A stretch of DNA of 64,000 nt from positions 1 to 64,000 of the forward strand of contig NZ_JAUFPN010000206.1 of NCBI RefSeq assembly GCF_030409335.1. Reading direction: 5' to 3'. The position numbers and the translations under genes were made by a program. How positions within the stretch are numbered: the stretch's first letter is position 1; each line of letters opens with the position of its first letter. The notes below the pieces were generated by a model that saw nothing but the letters and a program-made list of their open reading frames with translations, did no database searches and was not told where the DNA came from. Below, piece after piece: positions 33,352-46,971 of this stretch. Origin of the DNA: Paeniroseomonas aquatica. Its GTDB lineage: Bacteria; Pseudomonadota; Alphaproteobacteria; Acetobacterales; Acetobacteraceae.

Positions 33352-33355
<4 letters not shown>

Positions 33356-34542
33356 GCGGGGTGCTCCTTCGAGCGGGGCTTGAGGCGGCGGCGGTTGCGG
33401 CGGCGTAGCAGCCAGGCGGCAAGGCCGGTGACGAACAGCACCGGCATGGCGAGGCCGGAAAGGAAGACCAGCAGCCGTCCGGTCCAGCCGAGCAGCGCCC
33501 CGCCGTGCAGCCAGCGCTGCATCGCCAGCGCCTCCTCGCCGGCGGAGCGGGTGCGCGGGCCGCGCTCCTCCAGCACTTCGCCCGACCAGGGGTCGATGGT
33601 GATGAAACTGCGGGCGCGGACCTCCGGGCTGCTGTCGGCCGGGCGGGTGGTGACCTGCCAGGACTGGCGCTGGCGGGTCGGCAGCAGCACCCCGGTCACG
33701 ACCTGCCCCGGCAGATGGGCCAGGGCGGCGGCGGCGGCGGCATCGGCATCGAGCCGCATCGGCTCGCGGCGCGGCGCCGGGCCACCCTGGCTCGGCGCAG
33801 CCTGCAGCATCGGGCTGCCCGGTGCCGGCGAGGCGACGCCGACGAGCGGGCGGAACCAGTTGGGGAAGATCAGCACCACCCCGGAGAAGGCCACCACGGC
33901 CAGCACCACCGCCATCCAGATGCCGATGACACGGTGCAGGTCGAGGTTGAACACCACGCTCGGCCGGGTGCGGATGGTCACCAGCGCCCGGGCGAGCGAG
34001 CCCTGATTCGGCCACCACAGCCAGATGCCCGAGGCCGAGAACAGCACCATCAGCACGCCGAGCCAGCCCACCGCGTCCCGCCCGCCCCAGTCACGCATCA
34101 GCAGCGTGTCGTGCAATTGGCGCGTCACCGCGATGAAGCTGCCGCTGCCGTCGCGTTCGCCCAGCAGGGCGCCGGTGGCGGGGTCGAGATAGGCGGTCGG
34201 CGCGCTGGCCCCGCCGCGGACCCGCGGCGGCGAGACGATCCAGACCGGCCAGACCGCATCGGGCGGGCGGACGGTGCCGGCGGTACGGCCGGTGGCCGTC
34301 TCGGCCAGCCGGAGGATGGCGCTGTAGCCGAGTTCCGGATTGGCCGGGCCGGTCGGGCGGTACAGCGCGGGGTTCAGCGCCGCGTCGATCTCCCGCTGGA
34401 AGGACAGGATGCTGCCGGTGACGCCGATCACGACGAGTACCAGGCCCAGCACCAGCCCGGCCCAGCGGTGCGCCAACAGCAGCGCCCGGCTGACGGTGAG
34501 GCTGCGGCGCGCGACCGCGGCGTCCTGGAGGACCGCGCTCAC
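33352..34542 (-). CDS. PepSY-domain membrane protein (PiuB-like)
   Basis: This 396-residue inner-membrane protein has four transmembrane segments and PepSY repeats in the periplasmic loops. The N-terminal block [20 protein letters not shown] then [11 protein letters not shown] is the PepSY_TM signature, and conserved His residues occur in [21 protein letters not shown] and QRWLHGG, consistent with haem or metal binding. In Pseudomonas the analogous PiuB is encoded with piuA and piuC. It may reduce ferric siderophores at the membrane, an inference. It overlaps the exbB start and the dioxygenase stop by 4 nt each. Confidence 0.85.
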
Positions 34543-35222
34543 GCGTCGGCCCAGCGGCGCAGGAGGTTGTGGTACACGGCAGTCAGCTCCGTGGGCGCGG
34601 CATGGCCAGGCGGCAGGTTCCCGCGGGCCCGGTTGATGGCCATGTCGAGGTCGAACAGCAGCCCGCGCTGGCCGTCGTCGCGCACCATGCTCTGGACCCA
34701 GAAGAAGCTGGCGAGGCGCGAGCCGCGGGTGATGGGGGCCACGCGGTGCAGGCTGGTGGCGGGATAAAGCACGGCATCGCCGGCCGGCAGCTTCACCCGG
34801 TGCTCGCCATAGGTGTCCTCGACGATCAGCTCGCCGCCGTCGTAGCTCGCGGGGTCGCTGAGGAAGAGCGTGCAGGAGACGTCGGTGCGGATGCGGGTGC
34901 CCTGTCCGGGCACGATCCGGATGGCATTGTCCACATGGGCACCGAAGGTCATGCCCGGGTCGTAACGGTTGAACAGCGGCGGGAAGACCTTCAGCGGCAG
35001 CACGGCGGAGATGAACAGCGGCGTGCGCTCCAGCGCCGAGAGCACCAGCTCGCCCAGCGCCCGGTGTTCCGGACAGCCCTCGGGGATCTGCAGGTTGTCC
35101 TTCACCTGCGCGGATTGATGTCCGGCGGTAACCCGGCCATCGACCCAGGGCGCGCGCGCGAGCAGCGCGTGCGCCTCCGCCAGCGGACCGGCCTTCAGAA
35201 CCTCGGGGAGCTGCAGCAGCAC
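34539..35222 (-). CDS. piuC: PiuC-like Fe(II)/2-oxoglutarate-dependent dioxygenase
   Basis: This 227-residue protein is a PKHD-type hydroxylase (PiuC/YbiX family). The double-stranded beta-helix carries the iron ligands in [10 protein letters not shown] (His and Asp, near 93-95) and the second His in [18 protein letters not shown], where the Arg binds 2-oxoglutarate. The C terminus [16 protein letters not shown] is typical. Function in siderophore uptake is not settled. It starts 4 nt after the TonB-dependent receptor stop and overlaps the PepSY gene, so it is part of the same operon. Confidence 0.9.
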
Positions 35223-35226
35223 CGCG

Positions 35227-37350
35227 TCAGAACCGCGCCGCGACGGTGGCGATGAAGGTGCGGCTGGCGCCCGGCACCACCTGCCCGCCGGTCACCTGGT
35301 CGTAGTAACGGCGATCGGTGAGGTTCAGGGCGTTGAGCTGGACCCGCAGGCCGCGGAAGCCGCCCTCCTTCGGCACCCAGGCGAGCGAGGCGTCGTAGCG
35401 GGTATAGCCTGGGGCGAAGTTGGTGTTGGTGGTGTTGGAATAGCGCCCGTCCACGTAGAAGGCGCCGCCGCCGAGGGTCAGGTCATAGGGCAGGTCGTAG
35501 GTCGACCAGACCGTGGCGGTGTGCTTCGGGGTATTCGGGATGTTGCGGCCGACCTCGGCCGGCACCTTGCTCTGGACGATCTGGCCGTCGAGGAAGGTGT
35601 AGCCCGCCAGCAGGTTCCAGTTCTGGGTGACGCGGCCGAGCATCGAGACCTCGAAGCCATCGACCCGCTGGTTGCCGGCGAGGCTGGTGATGCCGCTGGC
35701 CGGGTCCGTCGTCCGGGCGTTCTCCTTCTCCAGCCGGAAGACAGCGCCCTTGACCTCGACGCGGCCGGCGATGTCGTAGGAGGCGCCGATCTCGTAGCTC
35801 TGGTTGCGCTCCGGCGCCAGGTCGGCGGTGGTCGCGGTCAGGGTCAGGAACTCGCCCGAGGGATTGAACGAGGTGCCGGTCGAGAAGTAGGTGCGCAGCC
35901 CGGGGATCGGCTTGAAGACCAGCGCGGCGCGGTAGCTGGCGAGGTTGTCGTTGCCCTTCAGCCGGACATTGTCGAGGAAGCTGCGGTAATCGGTCTCGAA
36001 GTGATCGAAGCGGCCGCCCAGCAGCACCTCGAACATCTGGCCGATCTTGATCTGGTCCACCGCGAAGGCGGCGGCGCTGTCCGAGGTGACGCTGACGCGC
36101 GAGCGCAGGCTTCGGGTCAGGTTACTGGTGTTGTCGAAGTAGTTGGGAAAGAAGAGGTTGGCATTCGGGCGAGGGCCGAAATACCGCGTGGTATGGTTGG
36201 TGTCGCGGCCGAATTCGGCGCCCACCAGCGCCGAATGCTCCAGCGGGCCGGTGCGGAAGTTCAGCACCAGCTCGCTGAGGTTGTTGTAGCCGGTGTCGGT
36301 GGCGTCGCGGAACTGCGCCTCCCGCAGCACCGTGGTGGTCGGGATCTGCGCCAGGCTGGTGGGCGTCGCGTTGAAGCGCGGTGCCGTCGCCTGCAGGTCG
36401 CGGTCGTAGTTGGAGAAGCGGAAGGTGTTGCGGACGGTGACCTCGTCGCTGAAACGATGCGAGAGCCGGGCCGTCAGTACATCGGTGGTCAGCCGCTCAT
36501 GGTCGACGCCGGCGGTGCCGTAGTAGTTGTTGCGGTTCACCGCGGCCGGCCGGCCGAACAGCCAGGGCAGGCCATAATCCGGAACGTTGTTCTCGTACTG
36601 GTGCAGGTAGTGCACGGTGAACTGCGTGTTGGTGCCGAGCCCGAAGGTGACGGAAGGGGCAATGCCGTAGCGGCTGTTCTCGACATGGTCGCGCCCGGCG
36701 ACCTGCTGGGTCAGTGCCATGGTGTTCAGCCGGACGCCGACCGTGCCGGCGTAGAGGTTCACGTCGCTGGTGGCGCGAACGCCGGCGGGCGAGAAGGCCT
36801 GCAGGCTGAGCTCGCCGAAGTTGCGGGCCTGCGGCAGGCGCAGCGTCTGGTTGATGACGCCGCCGGTGGAGCCGCGGCCGAACTGGATCGAGGAGGGGCC
36901 CTTCAGCACCTCGACGCTGTCGAGGTAGAAGGGGTCGCGGGTGTATTGCCCGATGTCGCGCAGCCCTTCGATGAAGAAGTCGCCACGCGCGCTGAAGCCG
37001 CGGAGCGTGAGGTTGTCGCCGGAGGCGCCGCCCTCGCCGGCGGCGAAGCTGATGCCGGTGACGTTGCGCAAGGCTTCCCGCAGCGTGGTGCCGGCACGCT
37101 CGTCGATCAGCGCGCGGGGGACGACGGAAATGGTCTGGGGAGCGTCGGCGACGGTGGTCGGCAGGCGGGCCGCCGGGACATTGGCGCCGCTGTAGCTGGA
37201 CGGCGCCTGGGTCTGGACATTCATCTCCGGCAGCGCCAGGTCGGCGGCCGGCGGGGTCTGCGCAGCGGTGGGCATCGCGGCCGCGAGCAGCCCGAGCCCC
37301 GCGAGGCCGAGGCTGGGTTCGAGGCTTGGGATGGGGTGGCGGAGCGACAT
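35227..37350 (-). CDS. TonB-dependent siderophore receptor (PiuA/Fiu type)
   Basis: This outer-membrane receptor of 707 residues has a signal peptide (about 1-29, ending TAAQ), a plug domain (about 55-170: [51 protein letters not shown]), and a 22-strand barrel ending FIATVAARF with a terminal Phe. The plug pattern and the neighbours piuC and Sel1 protein point to catecholate siderophore uptake. I chose the ATG at 37350 since GGGAAG lies 9 nt upstream; an ATG at 37359 would abut that site. A Fur-like box sits 43 nt upstream. Confidence 0.92.
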
Positions 37351-37393
37351 CGCGTGCATCTTCCCGGCTGCGGTGCCGCTTCGATAGAGACGA

Positions 37394-37408
37394 TGAGAAT
37401 GACTCGCA
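37394..37408 (-). promoter_or_regulatory. Fur-like box upstream of the siderophore receptor
   Basis: On the minus strand TGCGAGTCATTCTCA forms a 7-1-7 partly palindromic Fur-type site, 43 nt before the receptor start. It shares a 17-nt stretch with one mismatch with the copy at 38406-38426. Confidence 0.6.
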
Positions 37409-37462
37409 ATAGCAATTCGTAACGCAGTATGACCGGCCGGTGGGTTGGGCCATGCCATGGTT

Positions 37463-38239
37463 CTAGCCCTGGCCGGAGGTGGCTAGGCGGCCGGCGACCG
37501 CCGCGCCGATGGCGCGGAGCTCCGGCTCCGGCCGTGCCGCCAGCCGTTCGGCCATGCTGGCGAGGAAGCCGCCCGGGCTGCCCTCGATCGCCTGGCTGAA
37601 CCAGTCCACGGCGGCGGCGACTTCGCCACGCGCCGCGAGCAGGGTGCCGAGGTTGAACTTCCCCCGGAAGTCGCCGGCCTCCGCCGCGCGGCGGTAGAGC
37701 GCCGCGGCTGCCGCCGGGTCGGGCTCGGTCTCCCAGCCCTCCTCGAGGAAGCGGCCGAGGATGTTCAGCGACTTCGCATGGCCCTGGGCCGCAGCCCGGC
37801 GGTACCAGTGCAGGGCCGCGGCCGGATCCGGGCCAGTGCCGGCGCCACGCCAGAGCAGGGCGGCATAATTGTACTGTGCCCAGTCGAGTCCCGCCTCCGC
37901 CGCACGGCGGAAGCATTCGAGGGCGGCGGCGGTATCGACCGGCCCGCCCCAGCCCAGCTCATGGCAGCGACCCAGCAGGTTCAGCCCCGCCATGCTGCCG
38001 GCCTCGGCGGCGCTGCGGAACCAGACCCGGGCGGTGGCAGGGTCGGCCGGCAGGCCGCGGCCGTCGAGCAGGATCTGGCCCAGCAACAGCTGCGCCTCGA
38101 CCATGCCGTACCGGGCCGCGGCGGCGATCCAGTGGGCCGCTTCGGCGGGTTCGCCGTTGAAGGCCGCGACCAGCTCCGCCTGGGTGGCGGCTGCCAGCTG
38201 GTCGAAGGTGACCGGGGGCGGGCGGTGGCGTTGGGACAT
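37463..38239 (-). CDS. Sel1-repeat protein
   Basis: This 258-residue protein is built of about six Sel1-like (TPR-related) repeats, for example AEAQLLLGQILLDGRGLPAD-type units: LLGQILLDGRGLPADPATA, LLGRCHELGWGGPVDTAAA, ILGRFLEEGWETEPDPAAA. Such proteins act as protein-binding scaffolds. In pseudomonads a Sel1 protein (PA4516) is encoded with piuA and piuC, and here it precedes the receptor gene by 112 nt on the same strand. The ATG at 38239 is one of several possible starts; 38299 is in frame. No signal peptide is seen. A Fur-like box lies 166 nt upstream. Confidence 0.82.
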   Translation of the reverse strand: MSQRHRPPPVTFDQLAAATQAELVAAFNGEPAEAAHWIAAAARYGMVEAQLLLGQILLDGRGLPADPATARVWFRSAAEAGSMAGLNLLGRCHELGWGGPVDTAAALECFRRAAEAGLDWAQYNYAALLWRGAGTGPDPAAALHWYRRAAAQGHAKSLNILGRFLEEGWETEPDPAAAAALYRRAAEAGDFRGKFNLGTLLAARGEVAAAVDWFSQAIEGSPGGFLASMAERLAARPEPELRAIGAAVAGRLATSGQG

Positions 38240-38405
38240 GCGGGCCTGGGCCGGTGCGGACCGTGGCGTCGCGCGGATCAGTGGCTGCCGCATCCGCACC
38301 GCCGCCGGGCGGCGATGCGGAGGGCGGGAGGGGGGGCAGGGCGGGGCAGGGGGAGGCTCGGCATGGTCGCAATGATCCCGGCTATGGCAGGCAGCCTAGG
38401 ATTTC

Positions 38406-38420
38406 TGCGAATAACTCGCA
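38406..38420 (-). promoter_or_regulatory. Fur-like box upstream of the Sel1 gene
   Basis: On the minus strand TGCGAGTTATTCGCA is a 7-1-7 palindrome with only one mismatched pair (TGCGAGT and ATTCGCA). The adjoining bases ATAGCA-side are shared with the site at 37394. It probably heads the whole iron locus. Confidence 0.6.
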
Positions 38421-38438
38421 ATAGCAGGACGCATCCCC

Positions 38439-43866: not shown

Positions 43867-43966
43867 GCGGCTGTCCTGAGCGGAATGTCGCCGTCTTATA
43901 CCGCATGATCGCCCCCGGTTGAGCATGACCCCTCTCTGCGCCATGGTGCCGCCGAGGAGACCCCGC

Positions 43967-45043
43967 ATGAGCACCCGCAAGAAGTACCGCATCGCCGTGA
44001 TCCCGGGCGACGGCATCGGCCAGGAAACCACGCCCGAGGGCCTGCGTGTGCTGGATGCCGCCGCCCGCCGCTTCGGCTTCGACCTGGAGCTGGTGCATTA
44101 TGACTGGTCCTGCGAGGTCTATTCCCGGACCGGCAAGATGATGCCCGACGACGGGCTGGAACAGCTCAGGCAGTCGGACAGCGTCTTCCTCGGTGCGGTC
44201 GGCTGGCCCGGCGTGCCGGACCACGTCTCGCTCTGGGGCCTGCTGATCCCGATCCGCCGGGGGTTCGACCAGTATGTGAACCTCCGCCCCTGCAAGCTGC
44301 TGCCGGGGGCGACCACGCCGCTGGCCAATCGCGGGCCGAAGGACATCGACTTCTACGTGGTGCGGGAAAATACCGAGGGCGAGTACAGCTCGGTGGGCGG
44401 AAGGATGTTCCCGGGGACGGACCGCGAGTTCGTCTCCCAGCAGTCCATCCTGACGCGGATCGGCTGCGACCGGGTGATGAAATACGCCTATGAGCTGGCA
44501 ATGACCCGGCCGCGGCGGAAGCTGACCAGCGCCACCAAGTCGAACGGCATCACCTTCACCATGCCCTACTGGGACGAGCGCTTCGCCGAGATGGGCAAGA
44601 ACTACCCCGGGGTGACGACCGACCAGTTCCACATCGACATCCTCTGCGCCCATTTCGTGCAGCACCCGGATTGGTTCGACGTGGTCGTGGGCTCCAACCT
44701 GTTCGGCGATATCCTGTCGGACCTCGGCCCGGCGGTGGCGGGCTCGATCGGCATTGCAGCCTCGGCCAACATCAACCCGGAGAAGGCCTTCCCCAGCATG
44801 TTCGAGCCGGTGCATGGTTCGGCTCCGGATATCGCGGGTAAGTGGATCGCCAATCCGATCGGCCAGATCTGGTCCGGCGCAATGATGCTGGAGCACCTGG
44901 GGGAAAAGGCGGCGGCGGATGCCATCGTCTCGGGCATCGAAAGAATGCTAAGCGAAGGCGGCCCCCGCACCCGGGACATGGGCGGCCAGGCTGGCACGGT
45001 GGATGTGGGCAAGGCGCTGGCGGAGGCGGTCGGTCGCGCCTAG
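43967..45043 (+). CDS. Tartrate/D-malate dehydrogenase (isopropylmalate dehydrogenase family)
   Basis: This 358-residue beta-decarboxylating dehydrogenase resembles TtuC/DmlA, which oxidise tartrate and D-malate with NAD. Signatures are [20 protein letters not shown] at 8-27, [32 protein letters not shown], and the metal-binding [18 protein letters not shown], then [14 protein letters not shown]. The group's [19 protein letters not shown] block distinguishes it from LeuB and Icd. AGGAGA upstream supports the ATG at 43967. It could be a LeuB relative of other specificity. Confidence 0.87.
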
Positions 45044-45089: not shown

Positions 45090-45280
45090 GGCGCATCCGG
45101 TCACGACCTCGCGGGTTCTCCGAGGTTCACGAACTGACCTTCCCCTTGCCAGGCGGCGGGGTTCCCTGATCTACAGGGATATCCCGGCAGCGCGGCAATG
45201 AGGCGGAATTGCAACGAACCGGAACAAAGGGGCGAACGACCCTTGAAGGACCGGTCCGGCCCCGTTAGCATGGCCTTCTG

Positions 45281-45308
45281 TTGCGAGTGGTTCTTAATTG
45301 GCTCGCAA
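45281..45308 (+). promoter_or_regulatory. Fur-like box and inverted repeat before the 82-residue gene
   Basis: TGCGAGTGGTTCTTA (45282-45296) matches the two Fur-like boxes of the iron locus at 12 of 15 positions of the 37394 copy. A second half CTCGCAA (45302-45308) makes a 7-bp inverted repeat with TTGCGAG. It ends about 15 nt before the ATG at 45324, close enough to block transcription. Confidence 0.5.
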
Positions 45309-45323
45309 TCGGAGGATCGCCGG

Positions 45324-45572
45324 ATGGGTCGCATTGACCTCGACTTCAGCATTATTGGCCGTCGCTGTGAACGCGCGGTGGTGACCGCCTACCGGGAGCT
45401 GCGCGAAACCGGCAACGACGACCTGTCGTCCTTCCGTGCCTGCACCACCCTCTATCGCGTGCATCATCCGGAAGCCTCGGTGCAGGAAGCCCGCCGGTTG
45501 GTGGCCGAATGGATCGACCATCATGTCGTCCGCGGCGACAACGGTCCTACCGACGGCTGCGACTGCGACTGA
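45324..45572 (+). CDS. 82-residue Cys-containing hypothetical protein, possibly iron-regulated
   Basis: This small protein has no recognised family. It starts MGRIDLDFSIIGRRCERA, contains RACTTLYRVHHPEA, and ends GCDCD, so it has four Cys (two in a C-terminal CxC) and a His-His pair. It looks cytosolic and helical. GGAGG 8 nt before the ATG makes translation very likely. The Fur-like motif just upstream suggests iron control, and the CxC end could bind metal. Whether it helps handle iron or zinc cannot be told. It is convergent with the racemase gene (3-nt gap). Confidence 0.7.
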   Translation: MGRIDLDFSIIGRRCERAVVTAYRELRETGNDDLSSFRACTTLYRVHHPEASVQEARRLVAEWIDHHVVRGDNGPTDGCDCD

Positions 45573-45575
45573 GCC

Positions 45576-46280
45576 TCAGCAAGACGGGCTCCGCGCCCAG
45601 CCGATCGCGGCGCGCGCCAGGGCATCGATGCTATCCGCCACCGGAAAGGGCAAAGCCGGTCCGGCCGCCATCCCCAGCGGGATCTCGGTGCAGCCCAGCA
45701 CCACCGCCCGGGCCCCCCGCATCACCAGCCGCTGCGCCACCTCGGCCAAAGGCGCGTAAGCCTCCGCCACCCGGTTGGCCTTCACCAGCGCAATGGCCGG
45801 GGTGACCTGCTGCGCCATCTCCGTCGCATCCGGCATCAGGCAGGACCAGCCACGGCCTTCGAGTCCCTGCTGGTAGAGCCGCATCGCCAGGGTCGCCGCC
45901 GTGCCCATGACGCCGATCGGGCCGGCAGCGACGCCGAGCCGGATCAATTCCGCCGCGGTGGCGTCGACGATATGCAGAATCGGCCGGTCCGTCGCCGCCT
46001 GCATGGCGGCATGCCAGCCATGGGCGGTGTTGCAGGGGATGGCGATGGCGCCGCACCCTGCGGCCTTCAGGCCGGCGATGCCGCGCAGCAGCATCGGCAA
46101 GGGATCCTCGCCCCCTGCGAGGCGGGCGGCGGTGCGGTCCGGTACCCGCGGGTCCGACCAGAGCACCGACGGAATATGGTCCTGGTCCCGATCGGCGGGT
46201 GTCAGCAGCGTGAGTCGCAGCATGAAATGGGCACTGGCCAATGGCCCCATGCCGCCCAGCACACCCAGGATCTTGCTCAC
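45576..46280 (-). CDS. Aspartate/glutamate-type racemase
   Basis: This 234-residue protein is in the Asp/Glu/hydantoin racemase superfamily. It begins SKILGVLGGMGPLAS, with the two catalytic Cys at 83 (AIPCNTAHGW) and 197 (VLGCTEIPL), which swap protons on the substrate alpha-carbon. RxxxRLGV-type contacts and the tail PVADSIDALARAAI fit aspartate-racemase relatives. The start is the GTG at 46280, judged from the conserved N terminus. It is followed 40 nt upstream by an orphan gene on the same strand. Confidence 0.87.
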   Translation of the reverse strand: MSKILGVLGGMGPLASAHFMLRLTLLTPADRDQDHIPSVLWSDPRVPDRTAARLAGGEDPLPMLLRGIAGLKAAGCGAIAIPCNTAHGWHAAMQAATDRPILHIVDATAAELIRLGVAAGPIGVMGTAATLAMRLYQQGLEGRGWSCLMPDATEMAQQVTPAIALVKANRVAEAYAPLAEVAQRLVMRGARAVVLGCTEIPLGMAAGPALPFPVADSIDALARAAIGWARSPSC

Positions 46281-46320
46281 GCGCCCGCCATTCCCGTCCG
46301 TCGGGCGGCAGTCTGCCTGA

Positions 46321-46971
46321 TCAGGGCAGCCACATGAAGTTCGCCGTGGCACTGGCGCGGGAAATCAGCGCCCGCATGTCGGGATTGTTGTGGCCATCCT
46401 GGGCGATCAGCGCCTCCATCGGGCAGTAGAATTCATGCGCCTGCGCGATCTGGTTACGGGCAAAGCCTTCGTAGTGCCGGTTCTTGAGCCCGAAGACGAC
46501 GCGAATGTCCCGAACCGGCAGGGTCAGTGGCTGGTGCGGCTCCGCCTTCAGGATTCGAATCAGCCGCCAGCGTGGCGTCGGATCCGGCTCCTGCGCCGGG
46601 CCGAGCAGCCAATCCAGCGGGCAACAGGCCATGAGGGACGAGGTCGTGGGCGAGAAGCGGGAACGCTTGTCGAGCAGGTTCTGCAGGGAGGAGCAGGCCT
46701 CGATGCAGAGGATGTCGACATAGAGGTCGGCCGGATCGGGGCTGAAATGCAGCCAGAGCCCGTCCGGCAAGGTTCGGAGCCGGTTCGAGCCCGGCAGCTT
46801 GAGGAAGGGCTGGTTGGTCGCCGCCAGGTCGCCGGGCCTGCCGCGAAGCCAGGTGCCGGGCTGCTTCGGACTGGCCATGACCCCGGGTGGGCGTTGCGGC
46901 CACTTCTTCAGTTGTGTGCGGACCTGCTGATCGAGGGTTTGGAGGGATGCGGAGCTGGCAGCTTCGCCCAT
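46321..46971 (-). CDS. Orphan hypothetical protein in a less GC-rich patch
   Basis: This 216-residue protein has no recognised domain. It has SNRLRTLPDGLWLHFSPDP and ADLYVDILCIEACSSLQNLL in the middle, CCPLDWLLGPAQEPDP, and a Trp/Phe/Tyr-rich end (HEFYCPMEALIAQDGHNNPDM). Composition (more Asn, Gln, Lys, Cys) differs from its neighbours, and the adjoining 46972-47130 is visibly AT-richer, so horizontal gain is possible. AGGA 8 nt before the ATG supports translation. No operon partner except the racemase gene downstream. Confidence 0.6.
   Translation of the reverse strand: MGEAASSASLQTLDQQVRTQLKKWPQRPPGVMASPKQPGTWLRGRPGDLAATNQPFLKLPGSNRLRTLPDGLWLHFSPDPADLYVDILCIEACSSLQNLLDKRSRFSPTTSSLMACCPLDWLLGPAQEPDPTPRWRLIRILKAEPHQPLTLPVRDIRVVFGLKNRHYEGFARNQIAQAHEFYCPMEALIAQDGHNNPDMRALISRASATANFMWLP

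Follow-up and report, generated by a model that had tools for sequence, protein, structure and literature searches.

What might be the task of an 82-residue protein, rich in cysteine and histidine, whose gene lies behind a Fur-like box in Paeniroseomonas aquatica? The gene was met in a stretch of 64,000 nucleotides (contig NZ_JAUFPN010000206.1, here called the window), where its reading frame opens with the ATG at 45324 and its stop codon ends at 45572, as observed by ORF inspection. The ribosome binding site that the initial annotation had pointed out is in place (Table 1). The four cysteines that it had listed were also confirmed (Cys15, Cys40, Cys79 and Cys81), the last two forming a CxC that ends one residue short of the C-terminus. 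It had counted a single His-His pair; a conserved pair is indeed present, but there are two of them, His47-His48 and His66-His67. The protein has no visible signal sequence and is probably cytosolic.

Table 1. Features of the window discussed in the text (positions counted from the first nucleotide of the window).
Feature	Position	Strand	Basis or remark
PKHD-type Fe(II) dioxygenase (YbiX/PiuC type)	34539..35222	-	in the siderophore-receptor locus
TonB-dependent siderophore receptor (Fiu-like)	35227..37458	-	true start probably near 37350
Fur-like box before siderophore-receptor operon	37393..37409	-	core-box match; internal control
Fur-like box before Sel1-repeat gene, siderophore-receptor locus	38405..38421	-	core-box match
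Upstream neighbour, tartrate/isopropylmalate-type dehydrogenase	43919..45043	+	kept beside the gene in most Acetobacteraceae loci
Candidate -35 element TTGAAG	45243..45248	+	by inspection; in relatives within palindrome TTGAAC-N4-GTTCA
Candidate -10 element TAGCAT	45266..45271	+	17 nt from -35; by inspection
Core Fur-like box TTGCGAGTGGTTCTTAA	45281..45297	+	kept upstream of 79 of the 92 distinct copies
Extended dyad TTGCGAG-N14-CTCGCAA	45281..45308	.	exact; ends 15 nt before the ATG
Ribosome binding site GGAGGA	45311..45316	+	7 nt before the ATG; by inspection
CDS, 82-residue Cys/His three-helix protein	45324..45572	+	translation, homologues, conservation, AlphaFold2

We observed that the gene is far from being the orphan it had been taken for. 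Using tblastn, relatives of the protein were confirmed in 326 of 456 candidate stretches of the genome collection, and 80 of these were kept. The gene was present in 55 of 60 Acetobacteraceae genomes (the own genome counted) and in 4 of the 40 other genomes of this search. In the order sample it was found in 267 of 299 genomes, nearly always as a single copy. The conservation of the cysteines and histidines among homologues had been set beforehand as one of two refutation tests, and the family passed it. All eight positions were invariant in each of the 92 distinct Acetobacteraceae copies (92 of 110 loci after removal of duplicates); when three more copies were added, His47, His66 and His67 differed in one or two of the 95, and the remaining Cys/His positions in none. 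A crude estimate on four pairs gave dN of 0.04-0.11 against dS of 0.58-0.85, so that dN/dS is far below 1. The ORF 45324-45572 is a real, conserved gene, and its product belongs to a family of several hundred.

Next to the gene, the downstream neighbour (45576-46352) matched the model for the cysteate racemase CuyB above the model cut-off. An operon shared with the upstream dehydrogenase was weighed and set aside, as against it stands a Fur box of its own before the small gene in most loci. At one Acetobacteraceae locus (L077), the dehydrogenase match stops about 45 nt before the small gene.

The dyad before the ATG, which the initial annotation had called Fur-like, is exact, and it may be read as two overlapping, oppositely oriented Fur boxes. 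The outer dyad by itself is not beyond chance, since it was matched at two or fewer mismatches in 24 of 100 shuffled windows. The core box was searched as TTGCGANNNNTTCNNAA with at most one mismatch, and this gave 3 matches in the window against a shuffle mean of 0.24, with none of the 100 shuffles reaching 3. We further built a position-weight matrix on six Fur-like sites that precede other genes of the genome, and scanned 120 nt upstream of each distinct copy. A score of at least 12 was reached in 79 of the 92 upstream regions; among dinucleotide shuffles 5 of 460 reached it, and among stretches drawn at random from these loci 1 of 385. Matrix and footprint test are not fully independent, because the matrix sites were picked with a pattern that had initially been fitted to the upstream regions of the family itself. 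Thirteen of the 92 regions scored below 12, and 12 of these below 10. The phylogenetic conservation is thus strong evidence for a Fur-like site, as judged from the sequences, while the dyad statistics alone are not decisive. Fur control of the small gene is well supported by this footprinting across relatives.

The candidate promoter elements would place the transcription start next to the Fur box, which is the usual position for repression. A palindrome, TGAAC-N4-GTTCA, overlaps the -35 element upstream of Acetobacteraceae copies and is degenerate in the window (45243-45257). We counted 17 exact occurrences in 877,018 bases (the 92 distinct loci), and all 17 lay within 220 nt upstream of the small gene. 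In 60 whole genomes, TTGAAC-N4-GTTCA was rare and no other obvious shared target was found. The palindrome may be a second, gene-specific operator for another regulator.

Elsewhere in the 64 kb, the core box was found in only two further places, both at the siderophore-receptor/PiuC locus, and the window therefore holds its own positive control. This locus (33352-38299) comprises genes for a Sel1-repeat protein, the TonB receptor, the PKHD-type dioxygenase and a PepSY membrane protein, together with the two Fur-like boxes; its control by Fur is probable from the motif. The true start of the receptor is probably near 37350, downstream of the box. A pattern scan of the whole genome gave 37 matches, against 7 for a reversed control pattern. 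We inspected 13 of the match loci and tested the neighbours of some of them with Pfam. Two of the inspected matches precede TonB receptor genes outside the window, and one precedes the gene of a solute-binding protein; one more lies near an AsnC-type regulator, one before a protein without a Pfam match, and another near a DUF4198-like protein (itself below the Pfam cut-off). No clear iron gene was found at the rest of the 13 loci looked at. DUF4198 genes are under Fur regulation in Caulobacter, as given in the iron/Fur data of PMC3751524. Two FUR-family genes were found in this genome (PF01475 at 124.2 and 35.8 bits); fur is not adjacent to the small gene here but placed elsewhere, and it was not found within the Acetobacteraceae loci of the small gene that were searched.

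Outside the Acetobacteraceae, the neighbours of the gene are of a different kind. The window protein as sole query already reaches members beyond its family (best E of 2e-11 to 8e-6). A family profile found members in 19 other-family genomes among 289, and a wider profile in 42 of 385 genomes, at 46 places; loci were taken for 30 of these. In the phylum sample there were 6 matches among 349, one of them a doubtful fragment and none clearly outside the class. We observed that fur lies directly upstream, on the same strand, in 15 of the 27 distinct non-Acetobacteraceae loci, with 26-135 nt between the last position of the Fur match and the first of the small domain; the other 12 have no adjacent fur. 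The homologues directly downstream of fur strengthen the link to iron. Four of the homologues not linked to fur (L142, L146, L155 and L158) have upstream sites that look FNR-like by inspection, TTGATNNNNATCAA or close to it, which we take to be an FNR-type motif, and this hints at oxygen control in those lineages. Another homologue (L143) lies downstream of, and on the same strand as, genes for SufE and for a NifU_N protein, and is flanked on its other side by a metal ABC-3 permease.

In the Azospirillum order, 75 of 82 genomes have the family, with up to six copies each. We read 70 of these loci (the 30 best matches, and 40 chosen to cover second copies). The small gene follows fur in 49 of the 70. 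In 8 it follows mntP, the gene of a manganese exporter, some of these loci carrying mntP remnants. In 8 more it accompanies the cobalt/nickel sensor and exporter genes dmeR and dmeF: five have the small gene between the two, one has it before dmeF, and in two it is divergent from a dmeR-like gene. Of the remaining five, three are near NicO, CobW or an HMA-type ATPase with MerR, one is near DUF4198 and one beside a protoglobin gene. Pfam confirmed MntP, Trns_repr_metal, NicO and CobW as neighbours. Copies linked to fur and copies linked to mntP or dme genes form clusters in a tree (10 label changes against a shuffled mean of 27; the 65 columns give weak resolution). A plasmid search returned 12 records with homologues, all from Azospirillum or Indioceanicola; for the window protein itself, no copy on a plasmid was found. 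The small gene of Azospirillum sp. TSA2s and of A. oryzae sits between a metal-sensing repressor gene and dmeF, the A. oryzae copy being annotated as a hypothetical protein. In Indioceanicola one copy follows mntP (Pfam Mntp, 1e-43). A plasmid record of Azospirillum brasilense (L218, 2473-3174) has fur followed by the small gene, with the fur frame apparently shifted so that it enters the small gene.

To place the conserved residues, we used AlphaFold2 with an alignment of 30 rows, which predicted three helices (residues 14-28, 33-47 and 53-69) at a mean pLDDT of 84, with the core above 90. The model of a fur-linked member also has three helices (pLDDT 78). In the window model, Cys15, where helix 1 begins, and His47-His48, where helix 2 finishes, would meet at one end of an antiparallel hairpin. 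Among the 70 copies of the Azospirillum order, 67 have a cysteine before helix 1, 64 have [HYQ]HP and 69 a C-terminal histidine. Across the wide family only Cys15 and His48, of the eight Cys/His positions of the window family, are near-invariant. Cys15 is missing from one homologue (L155) and His47 from others, and the metal site must therefore differ between branches. The Acetobacteraceae branch has His66-His67 and the C-terminal CxC in place of the C-terminal histidine of the Azospirillum order. The pattern suggests a common core site with a further, branch-specific ligand.

Searches for a known family gave little. With Pfam, the best match of the window protein was a meaningless viral one (E 0.29); NCBIfam and PHROGs gave it no match, and ten homologues run against Pfam and NCBIfam gave nothing convincing. 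The family profile found nothing below E 0.087 among all PDB sequences. Foldseek returned no match for the two predicted models at E up to 0.001, and the best Z of VIA-align over 74 chains was 6.3, which lies in the range that the tool's note calls common for helical bundles. That no fold was matched does not prove the fold to be new. The identity of a CsoR-type repressor was rejected, since neither the window protein nor the ten homologues matched PF02583 (Trns_repr_metal) at E up to 1; the repressor neighbouring the homologue at L217 matches the same model at 1e-20. In the open literature on small proteins beside fur or in dmeRF operons we found nothing on this family, and no recognisable homologue was found in the consulted passages on the iron transcriptome of Gluconacetobacter diazotrophicus (PMC9368920).

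Together, these results have led us to favour, at a probability of roughly 0.55, an unnamed alphaproteobacterial family of small accessory proteins of metal homeostasis, of which the window member would be a Fur-repressed iron binder acting as chaperone or buffer, or else as a Fur partner of the Fpa (YlaN) type. Since its distant relatives adjoin genes for the sensing or export of iron, manganese, cobalt and nickel, a metal-handling helper of a new kind is probable. The Acetobacteraceae copy would be a free-standing gene with a promoter of its own; Fe-Fur, binding across the transcription start, would repress it, and the protein would be produced under iron shortage. In other families the small gene travels in the operon of a metal sensor or exporter (fur, mntP, dmeR-dmeF). 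Most probably the protein would bind the metal that its operon serves (for the Acetobacteraceae, iron) at the Cys15 and His47-His48 site, with His66-His67 and the C-terminal CxC available as a second group in the window family, and would then hand the metal to a partner, or withdraw it from one, as a buffer or chaperone; the partner is possibly Fur. From the evidence above we infer Fur repression, metal binding, the identity of the metal and the partner. The small iron-handling protein proposed at the outset is therefore favoured, in the form of a chaperone or buffer for metal that would be produced when iron is limiting. The Fur site, the conserved cysteines and histidines and the fur-adjacent homologues speak for that proposal; what does not stand is its restriction to iron, as the family is not iron-only, given the relatives beside manganese and cobalt/nickel genes.

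The main rival is that the protein acts on Fur itself, docking as an anti-repressor or co-regulator when iron is short and freeing Fur from DNA as Fpa does, with the paralogues doing likewise on DmeR. We consider this unlikely, though it has the position directly downstream of fur in its favour (15 of 27 distant and 49 of 70 Azospirillum-order loci), as well as the place beside a CsoR-type sensor in dmeR-X-dmeF (X being the small gene). It sits poorly with the mntP-linked copies, which adjoin an exporter and not a regulator, and with the window's genome, where the gene is far from fur, as well as with the Acetobacteraceae loci searched, in which no fur was found; the PDB profile search also found no sequence relation to a solved structure. 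Small Fe(II)-binding partners of Fur do exist, according to PMC11559061.

Two other explanations appear much less probable still. One is a divergent Bfd-like protein, an iron-sulfur or mononuclear iron electron carrier that mobilises stored iron under limitation. Bfd is a typical Fur target, and it is defined by C-x-C-X31-34-C-x2-C, with four ligands to a [2Fe-2S] cluster. Distant members have an N-terminal CxC or CC followed by HH(P) 31 residues on, which recalls the CxC-X31-CxxC of Bfd. This spacing suggested homology, but the hhalign probability in the profile comparison was 2.6%, so homology is not supported, and Fer2_BFD (PF04324) was unmatched at E up to 1 by the window protein and ten homologues. 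There is no counterpart of the second Cys pair of Bfd, the window protein having no CxxC and not showing the Bfd ligand pattern, and the genome already has three Fer2_BFD domains. The other explanation, to which we give as little weight, is a zinc-structured or redox small protein with no part in metal trafficking, induced by iron limitation for, e.g., oxidative stress or iron-sparing metabolism. Many non-iron genes are Fur-regulated, and the conserved neighbour is a tartrate/isopropylmalate-type dehydrogenase rather than an iron gene; however, this would leave the relatives beside fur, mntP, dmeR/dmeF and NicO unexplained. As for Bfd-like genes under Fur, the iron/Fur table for Caulobacter in PMC3751524 shows strong induction of a bacterioferritin-associated ferredoxin gene.

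A wider form of the accessory-protein reading can be offered only tentatively, and we think it rather doubtful. Each metal system (Fe/Fur, Mn/MntP, Co/Ni/DmeR-DmeF) would have its own adaptor paralogue, a three-helix Cys/His protein by which the sensor or exporter of that system is loaded or unloaded. The family would then be a multi-metal Gram-negative counterpart of Fpa, and its Acetobacteraceae branch would have become a feedback element that stands free and is repressed by Fur. In the usual description, metal sensors respond unaided to the pool of free metal. With a small protein that accompanies fur, mntP and dmeR-dmeF, the idea of a dedicated partner in alphaproteobacterial metal sensing would become testable, and there is a lead to the function of several hundred unnamed genes. 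Few accessory proteins of metal sensors are known; for Fur, PMC11559061 names Fpa, PtsN and YdiV.

Among known systems, Bfd resembles the family as a small, cysteine-bearing protein of an iron-limitation gene, with the CxC-X31 spacing common to the fur-linked branch; it differs by its CxxC pair and by the profile comparison given above. The CsoR/RcnR/DmeR repressors (PF02583) are likewise small Cys/His proteins, encoded in the same operons, and they are all-helical; they differ in being the products of separate genes, side by side with the small gene where both occur. The closest parallel in role is Fpa (YlaN), likewise small and connected with both Fur and iron limitation, which in Staphylococcus binds both Fe(II) and Fur and relieves repression (PMC11559061). 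No Fpa entry appeared at E up to 10 when the family profile was run against all PDB sequences (Fpa itself not being the query). As described in PMC11559061, Fpa is confined to the Firmicutes, uses O/N ligands only and has a promoter without a Fur box. The present family is in contrast alphaproteobacterial and rich in cysteine and histidine, and its genes are either preceded by a Fur box or part of a fur operon.
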